A DNA stretch of 64,000 bases, taken from assembly GCF_024643285.1 (NCBI RefSeq), contig NZ_JAMSLW010000004.1, positions 248,001-312,000 on the forward strand, given 5' to 3'. The translations under genes were made by a program, and so were the position numbers. Of this stretch, positions 43,752-49,555 are shown piece after piece. This DNA is from Parapedobacter lycopersici (GTDB taxonomy: Bacteria; Bacteroidota; Bacteroidia; Sphingobacteriales; Sphingobacteriaceae). The number at the start of each line of letters is the position of its first letter. Position 1 is the stretch's first letter. Under the pieces are notes generated by a model, which was not told the origin of the DNA, did no database searches, and saw only the letters and a list, made by a program, of their open reading frames with translations.

Positions 43752-45065
43752 CTAAACCGTTCCGTTGTCGAGCAGGTATTGCTTGAATCCATCAAAATCG
43801 ACACCCAACGGGGTAATCGCTTTCTTTCCACCTTCCAATGCTTTTACCTGTTGGGGAATAACAATCCGCCTGGCCACCTCAGGAGCGAATACTTCCGGGA
43901 ATTTGCACGGATGGGCTGTGGATAGGAAAACAGTGGCATATGATCCGGGATGCCGTTCGCGATAGGCTGTTGCGGCCAGCCACGCGATTGCGGTATGCGG
44001 GCAGGCAACATAACCATATTGTTCAAATAATGTCTGGATCGCCTGTTGCGTCTCGGCATCGGTATAGGTATAGGTGGTAACCTGTTTCCGTACCTGCTCA
44101 ATGTCTCCGCCAAACAGGTCCATGATACGTACCCAGTTGCTTGGATTGCCTACATCCATGGCATTCGCTAATGTCTGCACAGAAGGACGCGGTTCATAGC
44201 TGCCGTTCCGGAGAAACCGCGGCACGGTATCATTCACATTCGTTGCGGCAATAAACTGCTGTACGGGCAGTCCCATCTTATAAGCCAGTATCCCGGCACC
44301 GATATTTCCGAAATTCCCACTGGGCACTGAAAATACCACCTCGTTTATACCCTGCGATTTCAGTTGGGCGTAGGCATAAAAATAATAGAACGTCTGCGGG
44401 ATCAACCGGGCAATGTTGATGGAATTAGCCGACGTAAGATTAAACCGTTCGTTCAGGTCTTTATCATTGAAGGCTTCTTTAACCAGTGCCTGACAATCGT
44501 CAAATGTACCGTCTACTTCCACAGCACGTATATTCTGTCCGTTGGTGGTAAGCTGAAGTTCCTGCACCGGGCTTACCTTGCCTTTGGGATAGAGAATCGT
44601 AACCCGCGTGCCCGGGACTCCCAGGAATCCCAGGGCGACAGCTCCCCCGGTATCACCCGAGGTAGCTACCAGCACGTCCAGCGTCTGTCCGTCATTGGCG
44701 GAAAAATAGGCCATCACCCGGCTCATAAAACGGGCGCCAAAGTCTTTAAATGCCAATGAGGGGCCATGGAAGAGTTCCAGTACCGCAATCTCACTACTCA
44801 GCAGTTTCACCGGGGCATCGAAGTTTATTGCCTCGTCTATAATGGCCTTTAAATCGGCTTCTGGTATGACGTTTCCTATTAATTTCCGGGCTACCTCGAA
44901 GGCAATTTCAGGTAACGAATATTGTTGCAGGTTTGCAATGAAATGCCCGCTTAGCTGCGGAATTTCTATGGGCATGTATAAGCCTTTATCAGCTGGCAGG
45001 CTATTAAATACCGCCTCCTGGAATGAAACGCGGAGGTCCCGGTTATTGGTACTGTATAATTCCAT
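43752..45065 (-). CDS. thrC: Threonine synthase
   Basis: PLP enzyme of 437 residues that turns O-phosphohomoserine into threonine. MELYSTNNRDLRVSFQEAVF is the usual N-terminus. The PLP lysine lies in FHGPSLAFKDFGARFM. The phosphate-binding stretch is VFSVPSGNFGNIGAGILA, and ATSGDTGGAV lies earlier. The length fits the class with the long N-terminal domain. It is the last gene of thrA-thrB-thrC, 29 bases after thrB, and is controlled by the attenuator upstream of thrA. Confidence 0.96.
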   Translation of the reverse strand: MELYSTNNRDLRVSFQEAVFNSLPADKGLYMPIEIPQLSGHFIANLQQYSLPEIAFEVARKLIGNVIPEADLKAIIDEAINFDAPVKLLSSEIAVLELFHGPSLAFKDFGARFMSRVMAYFSANDGQTLDVLVATSGDTGGAVALGFLGVPGTRVTILYPKGKVSPVQELQLTTNGQNIRAVEVDGTFDDCQALVKEAFNDKDLNERFNLTSANSINIARLIPQTFYYFYAYAQLKSQGINEVVFSVPSGNFGNIGAGILAYKMGLPVQQFIAATNVNDTVPRFLRNGSYEPRPSVQTLANAMDVGNPSNWVRIMDLFGGDIEQVRKQVTTYTYTDAETQQAIQTLFEQYGYVACPHTAIAWLAATAYRERHPGSYATVFLSTAHPCKFPEVFAPEVARRIVIPQQVKALEGGKKAITPLGVDFDGFKQYLLDNGTV

Positions 45066-45094: not shown

Positions 45095-46081
45095 CTAAAG
45101 CTCCCTCGGTCCGTTGGCATTGATTCCGGACACATAGCCGTTGCTGTCGATCCCGTGTTGTGTTAAATGCGATTGAATAACCTTGACAATATCGCCGGCT
45201 GTTTCCCTGCTTTGTGCAAAGGCAAACACGGATGGGCCTGAACCGGAAATACCAAATCCCAGTGCGCCGCTATCGAGTGCCAGTCTGCGCATCTCATAGA
45301 ATTCCGGTATTAAAATCGCCCGTGTAGGTTCGATCAGCACATCCTGCATGCTACGGCCGATCAAGTCATAATCGTTCGTAAACAATCCGGCAACAAGGCC
45401 TGCGATATTGCCCCACTGTATTACTGCATCTTTTAATGCCACCTTTGACCGGATCATCTGTCGGGCGTCACGGGTTGGCACATCTACGTGGGGGAATACA
45501 ACAGCGGCGTGTAATGCCGGCGGTGCAGGGATCGCTACCACATCCAGCGGTTCGTATCCTTTAATGAGCGTAATGCCTCCCAGCAGGCCCGGCGCCACGT
45601 TGTCCGCATGTCCATGGCCGCAGGCAAGCGCTTCGCCCTGAATTGCGAAAGGTAACAGCTCCATCCGGGTTAACGGATTGCCCAGCAATGCATTGATAGC
45701 AAAAAGCCCGGCAACGGTACTCGCGGCACTGGATCCCAGGCCACTGCCAATCGGCATGTGTTTATGCAATTCAATCGTTACACCTACGTCTTCCCGCCCA
45801 ATGTACTTCAGCAGCATCTGAACACAGGCGCTAACGGTGTTTTTTCCCGCCTCACGGGGTAATCTGCCCTCATCACCGGTTACCTGGATGAGGTGTACCC
45901 CAGGTTGGTCTACCCGGCGCATAATGACCTCGTCGCCGGGTTCATCCAGTGCAAACCCAAGTACGTCAAAACCGCAAACGATATTGGCTACCGTAGCGGG
46001 GGCAAATACATGCACCAGTTCTTTTTCTCCGGAATCAGTTCCTGCCATCTTTTCTTCGGTTGTATTTATTATTTTAGTCAT
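45095..46081 (-). CDS. thrB: Homoserine kinase
   Basis: GHMP kinase of 328 residues that phosphorylates homoserine. VHVFAPATVANIVCGFDVLG is the substrate-binding start. HMPIGSGLGSSAASTVAGLF is the GHMP ATP-binding motif 2, and GFGISGSGPSVFAFAQ is motif 3. About 20 additional N-terminal residues precede the family start, and a downstream ATG (MAGTDSGEKE) at 46048 is an alternative. It lies between thrA and thrC in the same operon. Confidence 0.95.
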   Translation of the reverse strand: MTKIINTTEEKMAGTDSGEKELVHVFAPATVANIVCGFDVLGFALDEPGDEVIMRRVDQPGVHLIQVTGDEGRLPREAGKNTVSACVQMLLKYIGREDVGVTIELHKHMPIGSGLGSSAASTVAGLFAINALLGNPLTRMELLPFAIQGEALACGHGHADNVAPGLLGGITLIKGYEPLDVVAIPAPPALHAAVVFPHVDVPTRDARQMIRSKVALKDAVIQWGNIAGLVAGLFTNDYDLIGRSMQDVLIEPTRAILIPEFYEMRRLALDSGALGFGISGSGPSVFAFAQSRETAGDIVKVIQSHLTQHGIDSNGYVSGINANGPREL

Positions 46082-46103: not shown

Positions 46104-48551
46104 TCACGCCCCTACGTTAACCAGGTCGGCAAATACACCTGCTGCAGTGACCTCAGCACCTGCACCCGGCCCTTTCACTACTAACGGGCGCTCCTTATAG
46201 CGCTCCGTGGTAAATGAAATGATATTGTCGCTTCCCGACAAGGTAAAAAACGGATGGTCTTCTCCCACCATTTCCAGGGCAATGGCGACTTTTCCGCCTT
46301 CCATTTTTCCGATATAACGCAGGGCTTTGTTTTCGCGCTGTGCCTGGTCTTTGAGTGCATTAAAATGCGCATCGGCGGCTTTCAATTCGCGGTAAAAATC
46401 GGCGACCGAAACTGCCTGAAGACAGGCCTCCGGCAATATTCCGCCGAGATCCACATCCGCTGCCTCCAATGGATAGCCGGCGTCCCGCGCCAGGATAAGC
46501 ATTTTACGCATAAAGTCCGTTCCACGCAGATCTTCCCTTGGGTCAGGCTCGGTATACCCCTTTTCCTGCGCTGCCTTGACCACATCGTGGAAGGAAGCGT
46601 CTCCGGTAAAATTATTGAAAATATACGATATGGTACCCGAAAGGATGGCCTCGATACGTGTGATGCGGTCGCCGCTCAGCATCAGGTCTTTCTGCACCCG
46701 TACGATGGGCAGCCCCGCCCCTACATTGGTTTCATAAAAGAAATCCACACCATGCCTGCGGGCAGCGTCTTTTAGCTGTTTGTATTGGCTATACTTACCG
46801 GAGTTGGCAATTTTATTGCAGGTAACAATCGAGATATTAGCATTGAATATCGACTCATAATACGGTATAGGCAACTCGCTTGCCGTATTATCAATAAACA
46901 CGCAGTTCGGGAGGTTCATGCGTTTCATCCGCTCCACAAAACCCGGCAGGTCAGCCTGCTCACCAGATTCCCCAAGTTGTTCTTCCCACTTTTCCAGCGC
47001 GATTCCCTCGCTATTGAACAGCATTTTCCGCGAATTACTGATGCCCACCACTTTAATTTCGATATCGTTGTGGTTCAGCAAAAAGTCGTGCTGCGCCTGT
47101 ATTTGTTTAAACAGCGTGGAACCGATATTTCCCGTGCCGACATTAAATACGTGGAGCGTTTTGTTAAGCTGGGCGAAGAACGCGTCATGAACCGCATTCA
47201 GTGCCTTGGAAAGATCGGCCTTAGCGATGATTACAGAGATATTGTATTCCGAGGACCCCTGTGCAATCGCCCGTACATTGATACCGTTCCGGCCCAATGC
47301 ATGGAAAAGTTTGCCTGCCATGCCGGGGGTCTGTTTCATGTTCTCACCCACGATAGCCAATACAGACAACTGATTTTCAATTTCCGGCTCGAGCAACTTG
47401 TTGGCCTGCAATTCCAGTTCAAATTCGTTTTCAATGAGCCGTTTCGCCCGCAGTGCTTCTCCCGGATGAACGGCAAACGTGATGCTATGTTCTGATGACG
47501 ACTGGGTAATAAGCACGACATTAATCTGCTCCCTTGCCAGCAACGTAAACAACCTGCCGCTGAACCCTGCCTTGCCGATCATACCGCCTCCGCTCAGGTT
47601 GATTATGCTGATATCGGAAATCGATGAGATACCCTTGATAGGTAATTCGGTCATACCGCTTTCATGCTGGATGGCTGTTCCCGCAAAATCGGGATTGAAT
47701 GTATTCCGGATTACAATGGGAATCTTCTTTAGAAATGCCGGAATCATCGTAGGAGGATAAATTACTTTTGCGCCAAAATAGGAAAGCTCCATGGCCTCAG
47801 TATACGAAAGCAGCGGCAGGGAAAACGCCTTCCTTACAATCCGTGGGTCGGCGGTAAGCATGCCGTCAACATCCGTCCATATTTCAATGGATTCAGCCGC
47901 CAGCGCAGCGCCGATGATGGCCGCGGTATAATCACTGCCTCCCCGGCCCAGGGTAGTCACCCTCCCTTTTTCATTGGACGCAATGAAACCAGTGACAAAA
48001 AGCAACCGATCGCTATTTTCGGAAACGAACGACCGGATACGCTGTTCCGAAAGTGGCTGGTTTACCTGGGCGCTTCCAAAGTGGCTGTCCGTGTAGATTA
48101 ATTCCGTTGCGTCAACGAAGCATGCCGCTGGAAAATACTGCTCGGCAATTTTACTGATCAGAAAAGCCGATGACCGTTCACCGTAACTTAAAATCAGGTC
48201 GCGGCTCTGTGAACTAAGTTCGCGGAGACTGAGAATACTTTGCAACAGATCCTCCAGTTCATTCAGGTACAGTTTCAGTTTGGTAAATACCGGATTTTGG
48301 TGCTTTACGGCAATCAATTGTTTTACCACCGCAAAATGCCGCGCTTCCATCTCAGATAAGCCCGCTGCAAAATCAATACCCTCTGCAGCCTCCTCCGCAA
48401 GTTTAGTCAGTAAGTTGGTTATTCCGCCCATGGCAGAAAGCACAACCACCGGCTGTTCGTTAGCAGCATGTGATTTTTTAATAATTTCGAGCACCGCCCT
48501 GATACTGTCCACGGAGCCTACGGATGTCCCTCCGAACTTAAGTACTTTCAT
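46104..48551 (-). CDS. thrA: Bifunctional aspartate kinase / homoserine dehydrogenase I
   Basis: Fused enzyme of 815 residues that starts and steers the threonine branch. The kinase part begins MKVLKFGGTSVGSVDSIRAV and includes TTLGRGGSDYTAAIIGAAL. Two ACT domains (about 310-460) should bind the feedback inhibitor threonine (SVLAIVGENMKQTPGMAGKL). The homoserine dehydrogenase part starts at VFNVGTGNIGSTLFKQIQAQ (NAD(P) motif) and has the LSGTISYIFNNF and EKGYTEPDPREDLRGTD stretches. Length matches E. coli ThrA. A leader peptide and terminator lie directly upstream, so its transcription is attenuated by Thr/Ile supply. Confidence 0.97.
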   Translation of the reverse strand: MKVLKFGGTSVGSVDSIRAVLEIIKKSHAANEQPVVVLSAMGGITNLLTKLAEEAAEGIDFAAGLSEMEARHFAVVKQLIAVKHQNPVFTKLKLYLNELEDLLQSILSLRELSSQSRDLILSYGERSSAFLISKIAEQYFPAACFVDATELIYTDSHFGSAQVNQPLSEQRIRSFVSENSDRLLFVTGFIASNEKGRVTTLGRGGSDYTAAIIGAALAAESIEIWTDVDGMLTADPRIVRKAFSLPLLSYTEAMELSYFGAKVIYPPTMIPAFLKKIPIVIRNTFNPDFAGTAIQHESGMTELPIKGISSISDISIINLSGGGMIGKAGFSGRLFTLLAREQINVVLITQSSSEHSITFAVHPGEALRAKRLIENEFELELQANKLLEPEIENQLSVLAIVGENMKQTPGMAGKLFHALGRNGINVRAIAQGSSEYNISVIIAKADLSKALNAVHDAFFAQLNKTLHVFNVGTGNIGSTLFKQIQAQHDFLLNHNDIEIKVVGISNSRKMLFNSEGIALEKWEEQLGESGEQADLPGFVERMKRMNLPNCVFIDNTASELPIPYYESIFNANISIVTCNKIANSGKYSQYKQLKDAARRHGVDFFYETNVGAGLPIVRVQKDLMLSGDRITRIEAILSGTISYIFNNFTGDASFHDVVKAAQEKGYTEPDPREDLRGTDFMRKMLILARDAGYPLEAADVDLGGILPEACLQAVSVADFYRELKAADAHFNALKDQAQRENKALRYIGKMEGGKVAIALEMVGEDHPFFTLSGSDNIISFTTERYKERPLVVKGPGAGAEVTAAGVFADLVNVGA

Positions 48552-48600: not shown

Positions 48601-48638
48601 AAATTAAAAACGCCCTCCTCTATCTGAGGAAGGCGCTT
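48601..48638 (-). terminator. Attenuator terminator before thrA
   Basis: On the minus strand CGCCTTCCTC (48635-48626) and GAGGAGGGCG (48620-48611) form a 10-bp stem, with one G-U pair and a five-base loop, followed by TTTTT. It lies 50 bases before the thrA start. Its 5' arm can instead pair with GAGGAAG in the last codons of the leader peptide. Confidence 0.85.
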
Positions 48639-48672
48639 ATGGTTTTCTATTTTTAAGATTACAACATAAAAA

Positions 48673-48744
48673 CTACTTCCTCCGTGTACTTGCCCCGGTG
48701 GTAATAATTGTTGTAATCGTTGTATTATTCAAATGTACTTTCAC
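48673..48744 (-). CDS. thrL: thr operon leader peptide (23 codons)
   Basis: Short open frame with a GTG start, encoding M-KVHLNN followed by TTITTIITTGASTRRK and a TAG stop. Seven of 23 residues are Thr and three are Ile, a run expected to stall ribosomes when either charged tRNA is scarce. Codons 21-23 (CGG AGG AAG) carry the GAGGAAG antiterminator sequence, so a ribosome reaching the stop codon would block it and allow termination. This has the same logic as the E. coli thr leader, whose peptide also mixes Thr and Ile codons. It begins about 12 bases after the predicted transcription start. The assignment comes from the sequence; expression is not shown. Confidence 0.85.
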   Translation of the reverse strand: MKVHLNNTTITTIITTGASTRRK

Positions 48745-48762
48745 TATGCTTAAATTCCGTGA

Positions 48763-48794
48763 CAAAGGAACGCTATTCGTTTGAGATTCGCAAA
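48763..48794 (-). promoter_or_regulatory. Promoter of the thr operon
   Basis: On the minus strand TTTG (48794-48791) and TTCCTTTG (48770-48763, one mismatch to TAnnTTTG) are 20 bases apart. Transcription should start near 48757, just upstream of the leader peptide. Confidence 0.75.
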
Positions 48795-48862
48795 AAAAAG
48801 TTGCTTTTTTTATCATGTCGTTAATATTTATACACGTTATTAACATATGTTTATTTTTTCTC

Positions 48863-48967: not shown

Positions 48968-49555
48968 ATGAATTTAAAAACATCGATAGCATGCTTGCTA
49001 TTTGCTTGCTTATTTGCCGTTTCGCAGGCACAGACATCAACCCAGGTAGCTGTTACCTCTACCGGGGCACAGGATCCGGATAATTTGGCCAAGGAATATT
49101 TCGCTCAAATCATGGGTGTGGCCGCATCGGCAACGAGCAACACCAAACTCTACCAGTTTATTTACGAATGGATTGGCACTCCCTATCGCCTGGGAGGCAA
49201 AACAAAAAAAGGAGTGGATTGTTCCAAGTTTGCCTACGAGTTATACGATAAAGTCTTCAACACCACATTGGGCTATAACAGCCGGAATATTTACACCCAG
49301 GTAGATCCGGTTAAAAAAGAAGAGCTCAAACCCGGCGATTTGGTGTTTTTCAAAATCCGCAGCCGCAACATCAGTCATGTCGGTGTATACATTGGCAACG
49401 ATAAGTTTGCACATGCTTCTTCCAGTCGCGGTGTCATGATCAGCGATTTAAATGAAGCATACTGGAAACGTTATTATTACAATGGCGGCAGGATGCTTAC
49501 GGCGCAGCATATGCTTGCGGAAGAAGAAGGCTCCTACGTTCCTTCTGTAAATTAA
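48968..49555 (+). CDS. NlpC/P60-family peptidoglycan endopeptidase
   Basis: Exported cysteine peptidase of 195 residues that should cut peptide stems of peptidoglycan. A signal peptide ends near SQAQ. The NlpC/P60 domain shows the catalytic triad: Cys85 in KKGVDCSKFAYELY, His137 in RNISHVGVYIGND and a third polar residue His149 in KFAHASSSRGV. LKPGDLVFFKIRSR is the usual strand. No binding domain such as SH3b or LysM is present. It has its own consensus promoter and is followed by a phosphoribosyltransferase gene. Confidence 0.93.
   Translation: MNLKTSIACLLFACLFAVSQAQTSTQVAVTSTGAQDPDNLAKEYFAQIMGVAASATSNTKLYQFIYEWIGTPYRLGGKTKKGVDCSKFAYELYDKVFNTTLGYNSRNIYTQVDPVKKEELKPGDLVFFKIRSRNISHVGVYIGNDKFAHASSSRGVMISDLNEAYWKRYYYNGGRMLTAQHMLAEEEGSYVPSVN

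Follow-up and report, generated by a model that had tools for sequence, protein, structure and literature searches.

The minus strand of the window, by which we mean the whole 64,000-nucleotide stretch of Parapedobacter lycopersici DNA analysed here, carries a thrABC operon, and the region in front of it raises the question of whether expression of these genes is controlled by a short leader gene. The operon consists of thrA (46104–48551), an 815-residue aspartate kinase–homoserine dehydrogenase fusion (Pfam AA_kinase, ACT, NAD_binding_3 and Homoserine_dh), thrB (45095–46081), a GHMP-family protein (Pfam GHMP_kinases_N and _C) whose name as homoserine kinase is inferred from the operon, and the threonine synthase gene thrC (43752–45065; Pfam Thr_synth_N and PALP). 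The intergenic gaps are 22 nt (thrA–thrB) and 29 nt (thrB–thrC). An NlpC/P60 gene starts at 48968 and diverges from thrA, and the leader region lies between the two. Our analysis indicates that thrABC of Parapedobacter is very probably repressed via a Thr/Ile-rich short leader gene when threonine and isoleucine are both abundant.

Promoter-like pair, leader gene and RNA segments in front of thrABC

A promoter-like pair occupies positions 48763–48794 of the minus strand, with TTTG at 48794–48791 and TTCCTTTG at 48770–48763; both elements, and the 20 nt between them, are as the original prediction had stated. We take TTTG-N20-TTCCTTTG to be a promoter pair of the Bacteroidota type. TTCCTTTG recurs 27–39 nt ahead of the chosen leader start in eight of nine Parapedobacter upstream regions (measured in locus L003 to a TTG start at 48732), and L005 is the sole exception among the nine in lacking it at that spacing. 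Transcription presumably starts directly ahead of the leader ORF.

The leader ORF (48673–48744, minus strand) runs from a GTG at 48744 to a TAG ending at 48673 and comprises 23 sense codons, MKVHLNNTTITTIITTGASTRRK, with seven Thr and three Ile; it could be read directly in the sequence as predicted. This reading frame extends upstream beyond the promoter, with an ATG at 48846, and GTG was preferred as the start because of the inferred transcription start and the comparison across the genus. The alternative TTG at 48732, which is the version chosen by our scripts, gives a leader of 19 codons. At least eight Thr or Ile per 12 residues were found at five of 2982 small-ORF starts on both strands of the whole window, and all five are in-frame starts of this leader ORF. 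A run of codons for the products of the pathway is hence found in a short ORF upstream of the operon, as in an attenuator.

The RNA from 48735 to 48605 folds at −42.1 kcal/mol (z −6.84), which none of 200 shuffles equalled, and the four segments of a textbook attenuator, with pairings 1:2, 2:3 (GAGGAAG/CTTCCTC) and 3:4, are present on the minus strand. Segment 1 lies within the Thr/Ile codons. Its outer part, GATTACAACA (48709–48718), pairs in the minimum-energy fold with TGTTGTAATC (48657–48666), a partner assigned by the fold and by arm and pair-count tests; its inner part, ATTATTACCACCG of the control codons (48696–48708), pairs with 48672–48684 with two A–A mismatches (ATTATT.CC.CCG with CGG.GG.AGTAGT). 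Locus L008 has a compensated change, GACTACAACA/TGTTGTAGTC, in the outer helix, and 91.3% of cells in the innermost 1:2 helix are paired across 30 sequences. Segment 2, CGGAGGAAGTAGT (48672–48684, from the fold), contains the end of the leader ORF with its stop codon and is the antiterminator strand. Its alternative partners are segment 1 and, via GAGGAAG at 48682–48676, segment 3, the perfectly complementary CTTCCTC at 48632–48626 inside the 5' arm of the terminator. Segments 3 and 4 form an intrinsic terminator (48606–48638; AAGCGCCTTCCTC-AGATA-GAGGAGGGCGTTT followed by T), which is recognized from sequence, fold and covariation. Its hairpin, CGCCTTCCTC (48635–48626) with GAGGAGGGCG (48620–48611), has ten pairs, one of them G–U, and is followed by TTTTT at 48610–48606. 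By sequence and structure this terminator lies between the leader ORF and the first gene, 54 nt separating the T-run from the thrA ATG (48551) and 121 nt lying between the end of the leader stop codon (48673) and that ATG.

Every element in the original inventory was located, including the pairing of GAGGAAG near the leader end with CTTCCTC in the terminator 5' arm and a 10-bp terminator with a T-run about 50 bases before thrA. What the inventory missed is the 1:2 hairpin, in which the antiterminator strand is sequestered and which emerged from the minimum-energy fold and from pair counts. This protector hairpin is found in the window and its close relatives, and is weak or absent in many distant loci.

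Conservation and linked changes in the Sphingobacteriaceae

ThrA was detected in 133 of 151 genomes of the family, and the upstream regions of 110 of these 133 were examined. At least eight Thr or Ile in 12 residues were present in 101 of the 110, as against one of 550 dinucleotide shuffles. A Thr/Ile-rich ORF followed, 17–40 nt past its stop, by a T-tailed and mostly G+C-rich hairpin was identified in 103 of the 110 loci, a number obtained by selecting by eye from the output of a loose hairpin finder that was positive in all 110. The seven loci set aside (L103–L109) had A+T-rich or misplaced hairpins or no Thr/Ile ORF, and the arm tests excluded them; L105–L108 among them carry a second architecture with a stop-codon hairpin, described below. 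The layout also occurs in named Sphingobacterium, Mucilaginibacter, Pedobacter and Daejeonella. Between genera the leader peptide varies, whereas its run of Thr and Ile persists, as do the complementary arms.

Linked changes were counted in an alignment (A2) of the 30 closest of the 103 loci, with L026 omitted as near-identical to L024, and by shuffles and permutations that ignore relatedness. In the terminator, 29 cells were changed on both sides against a shuffled mean of 9.4, and in the 1:2 helix 27 against 14.2; for both, the covariation score exceeded all 500 shuffles. Two of five measures for the 1:2 helix were not unusual, namely pairs changed on both sides (reached by 56 of 500 shuffles) and the number of additional pair types (248 of 500). 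When the 1:2 complement was tested by itself in each of the 103 loci, only 18 exceeded shuffles at p 0.05, and we thus claim this helix for the window and its close relatives only. The pair count for the antiterminator in the 30 closest loci was null, its paired percentage being reached by 204 and its score by 140 of 500 shuffles, as the core is nearly invariant there and the alignment looks faulty in some columns.

Comparison of cognate with permuted arms gave a signal for the antiterminator across all 103 loci (cognate mean 20.1 versus 18.3, sd 0.23; 0 of 2000 permutations as high) and across 14 Pedobacter loci (17.9 versus 14.4, sd 0.85; 0 of 20000). The latter set comprised all eight loci fetched from the genus that includes P. 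chitinilyticus and six named ones, and excluded L133, which shares its contig with L093, L132 for its short length, and L135, which bears the name Pedobacter but falls in the divergent L100 group. Arm pairs include GGAGGAAG/CTTCCTCC, GAGGGAAG/CTTCTCTC, ATCGGGAGC/GCTCCCGAT, CGGGGC/GTCCCG, CGGGGC/GCCCCG and CGGAAC/GTTCCG. L086 had no convincing cognate antiterminator, and a first listing of cognate and non-cognate arms was uninformative for most loci because most share a core CTTCC arm. The expectation that related thrA upstream regions would show conserved Thr codon runs and compensatory changes was thus borne out for the Thr/Ile runs, the arms and the terminator, and failed for the antiterminator within the 30 closest loci. 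What sequence and computation show directly is the set of segments, with its alternative pairings, conservation and linked changes.

A covariance model (R1) built from 30 loci, the window locus among them, scored 115.9 bits at that locus against 28.8 bits at the next place in the genome. The best R1 match had an E-value of at most 5.1e-6 in 117 of 121 genomes of the order, and was directly upstream of thrA on the same strand in 67 of the 68 genomes with a known thrA position. The exception (G011) has its match, with an Ile/Val leader, before a gene for a PLP-dependent enzyme (Pfam PALP; threonine dehydratase by eye). Across the class, R1 matched at 1e-4 under strict filters in 13 of 198 genomes, six of them in the Sphingobacteriaceae, with 165 unlisted that may include family members. 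A class match outside the family (G439) adjoins its own hisG, upstream of it, and weak matches at L324 and L327 were rejected as looking like chance or bare terminators. The R1-type thr element is mainly a feature of the Sphingobacteriaceae. Intrinsic-terminator thr leaders also occur in L134, L138, L144 and L198; L134 (Empedobacter tilapiae) and L144 (Epilithonimonas hominis) are records from another order, and the L144 leader has different arms, CAGAAAGG/CCTTTCTG.

The proposed switch and its alternatives

In our view the thrABC leader is highly likely to be a classical ribosome-mediated transcription attenuator, with charged tRNA-Thr and tRNA-Ile as its signals. Transcription would begin shortly ahead of the leader ORF. 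With threonine and isoleucine plentiful, the ribosome would reach the stop codon and cover GGAGGAAG in segment 2, segment 3 would then pair with segment 4, and the resulting terminator would end transcription before thrA. With either amino acid short, the ribosome would stall on the ACA, ACG, ACC or ATT codons of segment 1, segment 2 would be free to pair with segment 3, no terminator would form and thrABC would be transcribed. If there were no translation, segment 1 would pair with segment 2 and the terminator would form by default. The presumptive steps of this scheme are ribosome stalling, transcript termination at the T-run and responsiveness to the two amino acids.

This scheme was explored by a folding scan of 103 loci with three footprint sizes, in which the ribosome was set at each codon and the RNA downstream of its footprint was folded up to the terminator 5' arm. 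For the window, the antiterminator was predicted with Asn7 to Ala18 in the A site (23-codon numbering), and did not form at the two positions before Asn7, from Ser19 on, at the stop codon or without a ribosome. Across the 103 loci and three footprints, a mean of 92–95% of Thr/Ile stalls yielded the antiterminator, and at least half did so in every locus. With the ribosome at the stop codon it formed in none of the 103, a zero that is partly by construction since only RNA past the footprint was folded; where the leader is longer, 14–27 nt separate the antiterminator strand from the downstream end of the stop codon. In these predictions the antiterminator excludes the terminator, and its 5' strand is covered at the stop codon and free during stalls at control codons. 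Without a ribosome the antiterminator was predicted in 65 of the 103 loci, and termination by default is therefore not a general property. The scan also qualifies the proposal of Thr and Ile codons as stall sites, which holds for the run at residues 8–16, predicted to be usable, and does not extend to the Thr at residue 20, which the model places too near the antiterminator. The Thr/Ile attenuator, with its antiterminator and its opposition of stalling to reaching the stop codon, is otherwise upheld by family conservation, the cognate-arm tests, the pair counts for the terminator and 1:2 helix, and the folding scan.

The best of the alternatives, although improbable, is control of translation, in which the helices would open or close the thrA start or ribosomes would re-initiate after the leader. 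In 41 of the 103 family loci no more than 25 nt lie between the end of the hairpin and the thrA ATG, where it could hinder initiation, but in the window the T-run and thrA are 54 nt apart. As would be expected of a terminator, the T-tailed, G+C-rich hairpin covaries, and a strong one occurs no further than 230 nt from thrA in 102 of the 103 Thr/Ile leaders of the family as against 2 of 55 other Thr/Ile leaders. PMC4833913 suggests for bacteria in general that ribosomes re-initiate past leader genes; the distance peak given there for Bacteroidetes, 11–14 bp, is however far from the 121 nt between the leader stop and thrA.

Slightly less probable again is that the hairpin serves as an ordinary site of termination or processing, that the short ORF encodes a real small protein or arose by chance, and that thrABC is controlled elsewhere. 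Intergenic regions often contain intrinsic terminators and small ORFs, and the neighbouring gene runs divergently from 48968; since that gene is transcribed away, however, the hairpin cannot serve as its terminator. Against this reading stand also the Thr/Ile density of the family leaders relative to shuffles (101 of 110 versus 1 of 550) and a peptide that differs between genera while the Thr/Ile run and complementary arms persist. A metabolite-binding riboswitch or protein-binding leader with an incidental ORF might account for the strong structure (z −6.84) but is very improbable, as the window has no Rfam family except tRNA at gathering score, the conserved feature is Thr/Ile codon content, and the codons in the trp, ilv and his leaders of relatives match their respective pathways.

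Transcription attenuation at the thr leader is accordingly the reading that we retain, and those other leaders were surveyed in the genus and its relatives. A leader with Trp-Trp-Trp lies ahead of a trpE-like gene both in the window's genome and in two of its Parapedobacter relatives (L261–L263); the gene matches TIGR00564 in all three, each time below the curated cut-off. A CCCGACG...CGTCGGG hairpin with a T-run follows the leader, seen by eye as it exceeds the loop limit of the hairpin finder, and CGTCGGG is repeated within each leader, where by eye it could pair with the hairpin 5' arm. These are probable trp attenuators, although their sequences had no Rfam match at gathering score. For ilvD, the upstream regions of three Parapedobacter genomes held no such leader, and ilvD there appears to lie close behind another ORF. 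In the genus that includes P. chitinilyticus, Ile/Val leaders precede ilvD in L320, L322, L325 and L326 (Pfam ILVD_EDD for L320); these four, and L319 before a PALP enzyme (threonine dehydratase by eye), have T-tailed hairpins and were found via the thr model. L321 and L328 have Ile/Val-rich leaders (IIIVVII) with a T-tailed hairpin about 4 nt ahead of the ORF, which in L321 matches the ACT domain of the acetolactate synthase small subunit. All seven are, from their sequences, probable ilv attenuators. Upstream of hisG, a His-rich leader followed by a T-tailed hairpin was seen by eye in 21 of 31 loci (e.g. L290, L293 and L295, which belong to other families of the class); among the rest, four Sphingobacteriaceae loci had no hairpin, four loci had no His-rich ORF, and L311 and L314 were His-rich without such a hairpin. 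Four hisG loci (L273, L274, L275 and L301) have His-rich leaders that end in a small hairpin beside the stop, with no intrinsic terminator, followed by a conserved TTCTACGTGAAGC-like second element.

A second thr leader architecture and comparison with known systems

The small stop-side hairpin has a counterpart in thr leaders. We examined 119 further thrA upstream regions, one of which was too short; nearly all are from other Bacteroidota families, with L105–L108 from the Sphingobacteriaceae and a few records labelled otherwise. At least six Thr or Ile in 12 residues were present in 55 of 118, under a looser cut that 55 of 550 shuffles (about 10%) also reached. A small hairpin encloses the stop codon in 36 of the 55, with arms ACCCC/GGGGT in 16, ACGGG/CCCGT in eight and others in the remainder, and in 29 of the 55 this hairpin individually beat shuffles at p 0.1. 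A strong intrinsic terminator occurs in two of the 55 (L144 and L198), in contrast to 102 of 103 in the Sphingobacteriaceae. A CATAT-type motif follows the stop codon in 26 of the 55, mostly after 13–17 nt, and none of 16 stop-hairpin loci matched Rfam at gathering score. The hairpin surrounds the stop codon in L165, L167, L170, L171, L174–L176, L183, L185, L190, L208, L210, L220–L224, L226–L228, L230, L239, L241, L243, L245–L249, L251 and L255–L259, and lies just before it in L105–L108, L186, L225, L229, L231 and L234. Its arms change together (ACCCC/GGGGT, ACGGG/CCCGT).

A possible but doubtful interpretation is that Bacteroidota have two mechanically different leader-peptide switches for the thr operon, the intrinsic-terminator attenuator of the Sphingobacteriaceae and, elsewhere, an undescribed one with a covarying stop hairpin (ACCCC-TTAG-GGGGT, ACGGG-GTGA-CCCGT and others) and no intrinsic terminator, which would be Rho-dependent or translational. 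The stop-adjacent hairpins of the Parapedobacter his leaders (L273–L275) have a GCC/GGC core and resemble this second architecture; judged by sequence, the his leader of Parapedobacter looks like the second kind and its thr and trp leaders like the first.

Classical attenuation needs a leading ribosome that keeps pace with RNA polymerase. A conserved thr attenuator, together with trp, ilv and his leaders in the same family or class, therefore constitutes indirect evidence for transcription–translation coupling in Bacteroidota. The thr leader is a candidate Thr/Ile-responsive control element and provides the basis for an Rfam family.

Among known elements of the phylum, the Bacteroid-trp motif (RF01692), which from its name we take to be a trp-operon leader, differs from the thr leader in concerning Trp. 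The original remark that attenuation is rarely examined in this phylum does not hold. Bacteroid-trp is already given for Bacteroidetes as a probable cis-regulatory motif in table 1 of PMC2864571, and the sections of PMC9723704 available to us report strong clues for leader-peptide attenuation ahead of amino-acid operons of Flavobacterium psychrophilum and conserved structured elements upstream of its pheA and hisG. The F. psychrophilum attenuators share with ours the phylum and a leader peptide before biosynthetic operons, but section 19 of that paper names no thr element; most of the Flavobacteriaceae thr leaders that we examined have another architecture than that of Parapedobacter. Small ORFs reminiscent of leader peptides are also described for Bacteroides thetaiotaomicron in an excerpt of PMC7366714. 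The titles and abstract openings searched named no thr attenuator for the Sphingobacteriaceae, and a 2010 survey by Lopatovskaya and others (cited in PMC4833913) may list Bacteroidetes cases. Given these hints in PMC9723704, PMC2864571 and PMC7366714, as far as their available sections go, the thr attenuator is a further example of a known mechanism. Leader-peptide attenuation was already indicated in the phylum, and a complete, family-wide thr attenuator is an added case, documented where the available sections of the literature only hint at such control.

The closest comparison is with enterobacterial thrL (Rfam RF00506, Thr_leader), in which a Thr/Ile-rich peptide likewise precedes thrABC, the antiterminator strand lies in the last codons and stop, and a terminator follows; alignment to the Rfam consensus placed the same features in the Parapedobacter leader. 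Thr_leader matched with 26.6 bits (E 0.0044 on 321 bases), over the whole model (1–118), and membership of the family was rejected because the gathering score is 55. At gathering score the whole window had no Rfam match except tRNA; below it Thr_leader had the highest bit score, and rli40 (24.2 bits) had a smaller E-value (0.00033). The overlap of antiterminator and codons that had been put forward as a compact variant is present, but it is not a variant, for the Thr_leader consensus is arranged likewise: ggugCGGgc, followed by Uga, is complementary to GCCCGCacC. The Parapedobacter leader differs from Thr_leader in its GTG start, Bacteroidota-type promoter, other arm sequences and long outer 1:2 helix. 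It shares with the E. coli thrL peptide a TTG tripeptide past the last control codons. Attenuation of this type is textbook knowledge in E. coli and, by analogy, the thr element of Parapedobacter, which is laid out like the enterobacterial thr attenuator, appears to work like it.
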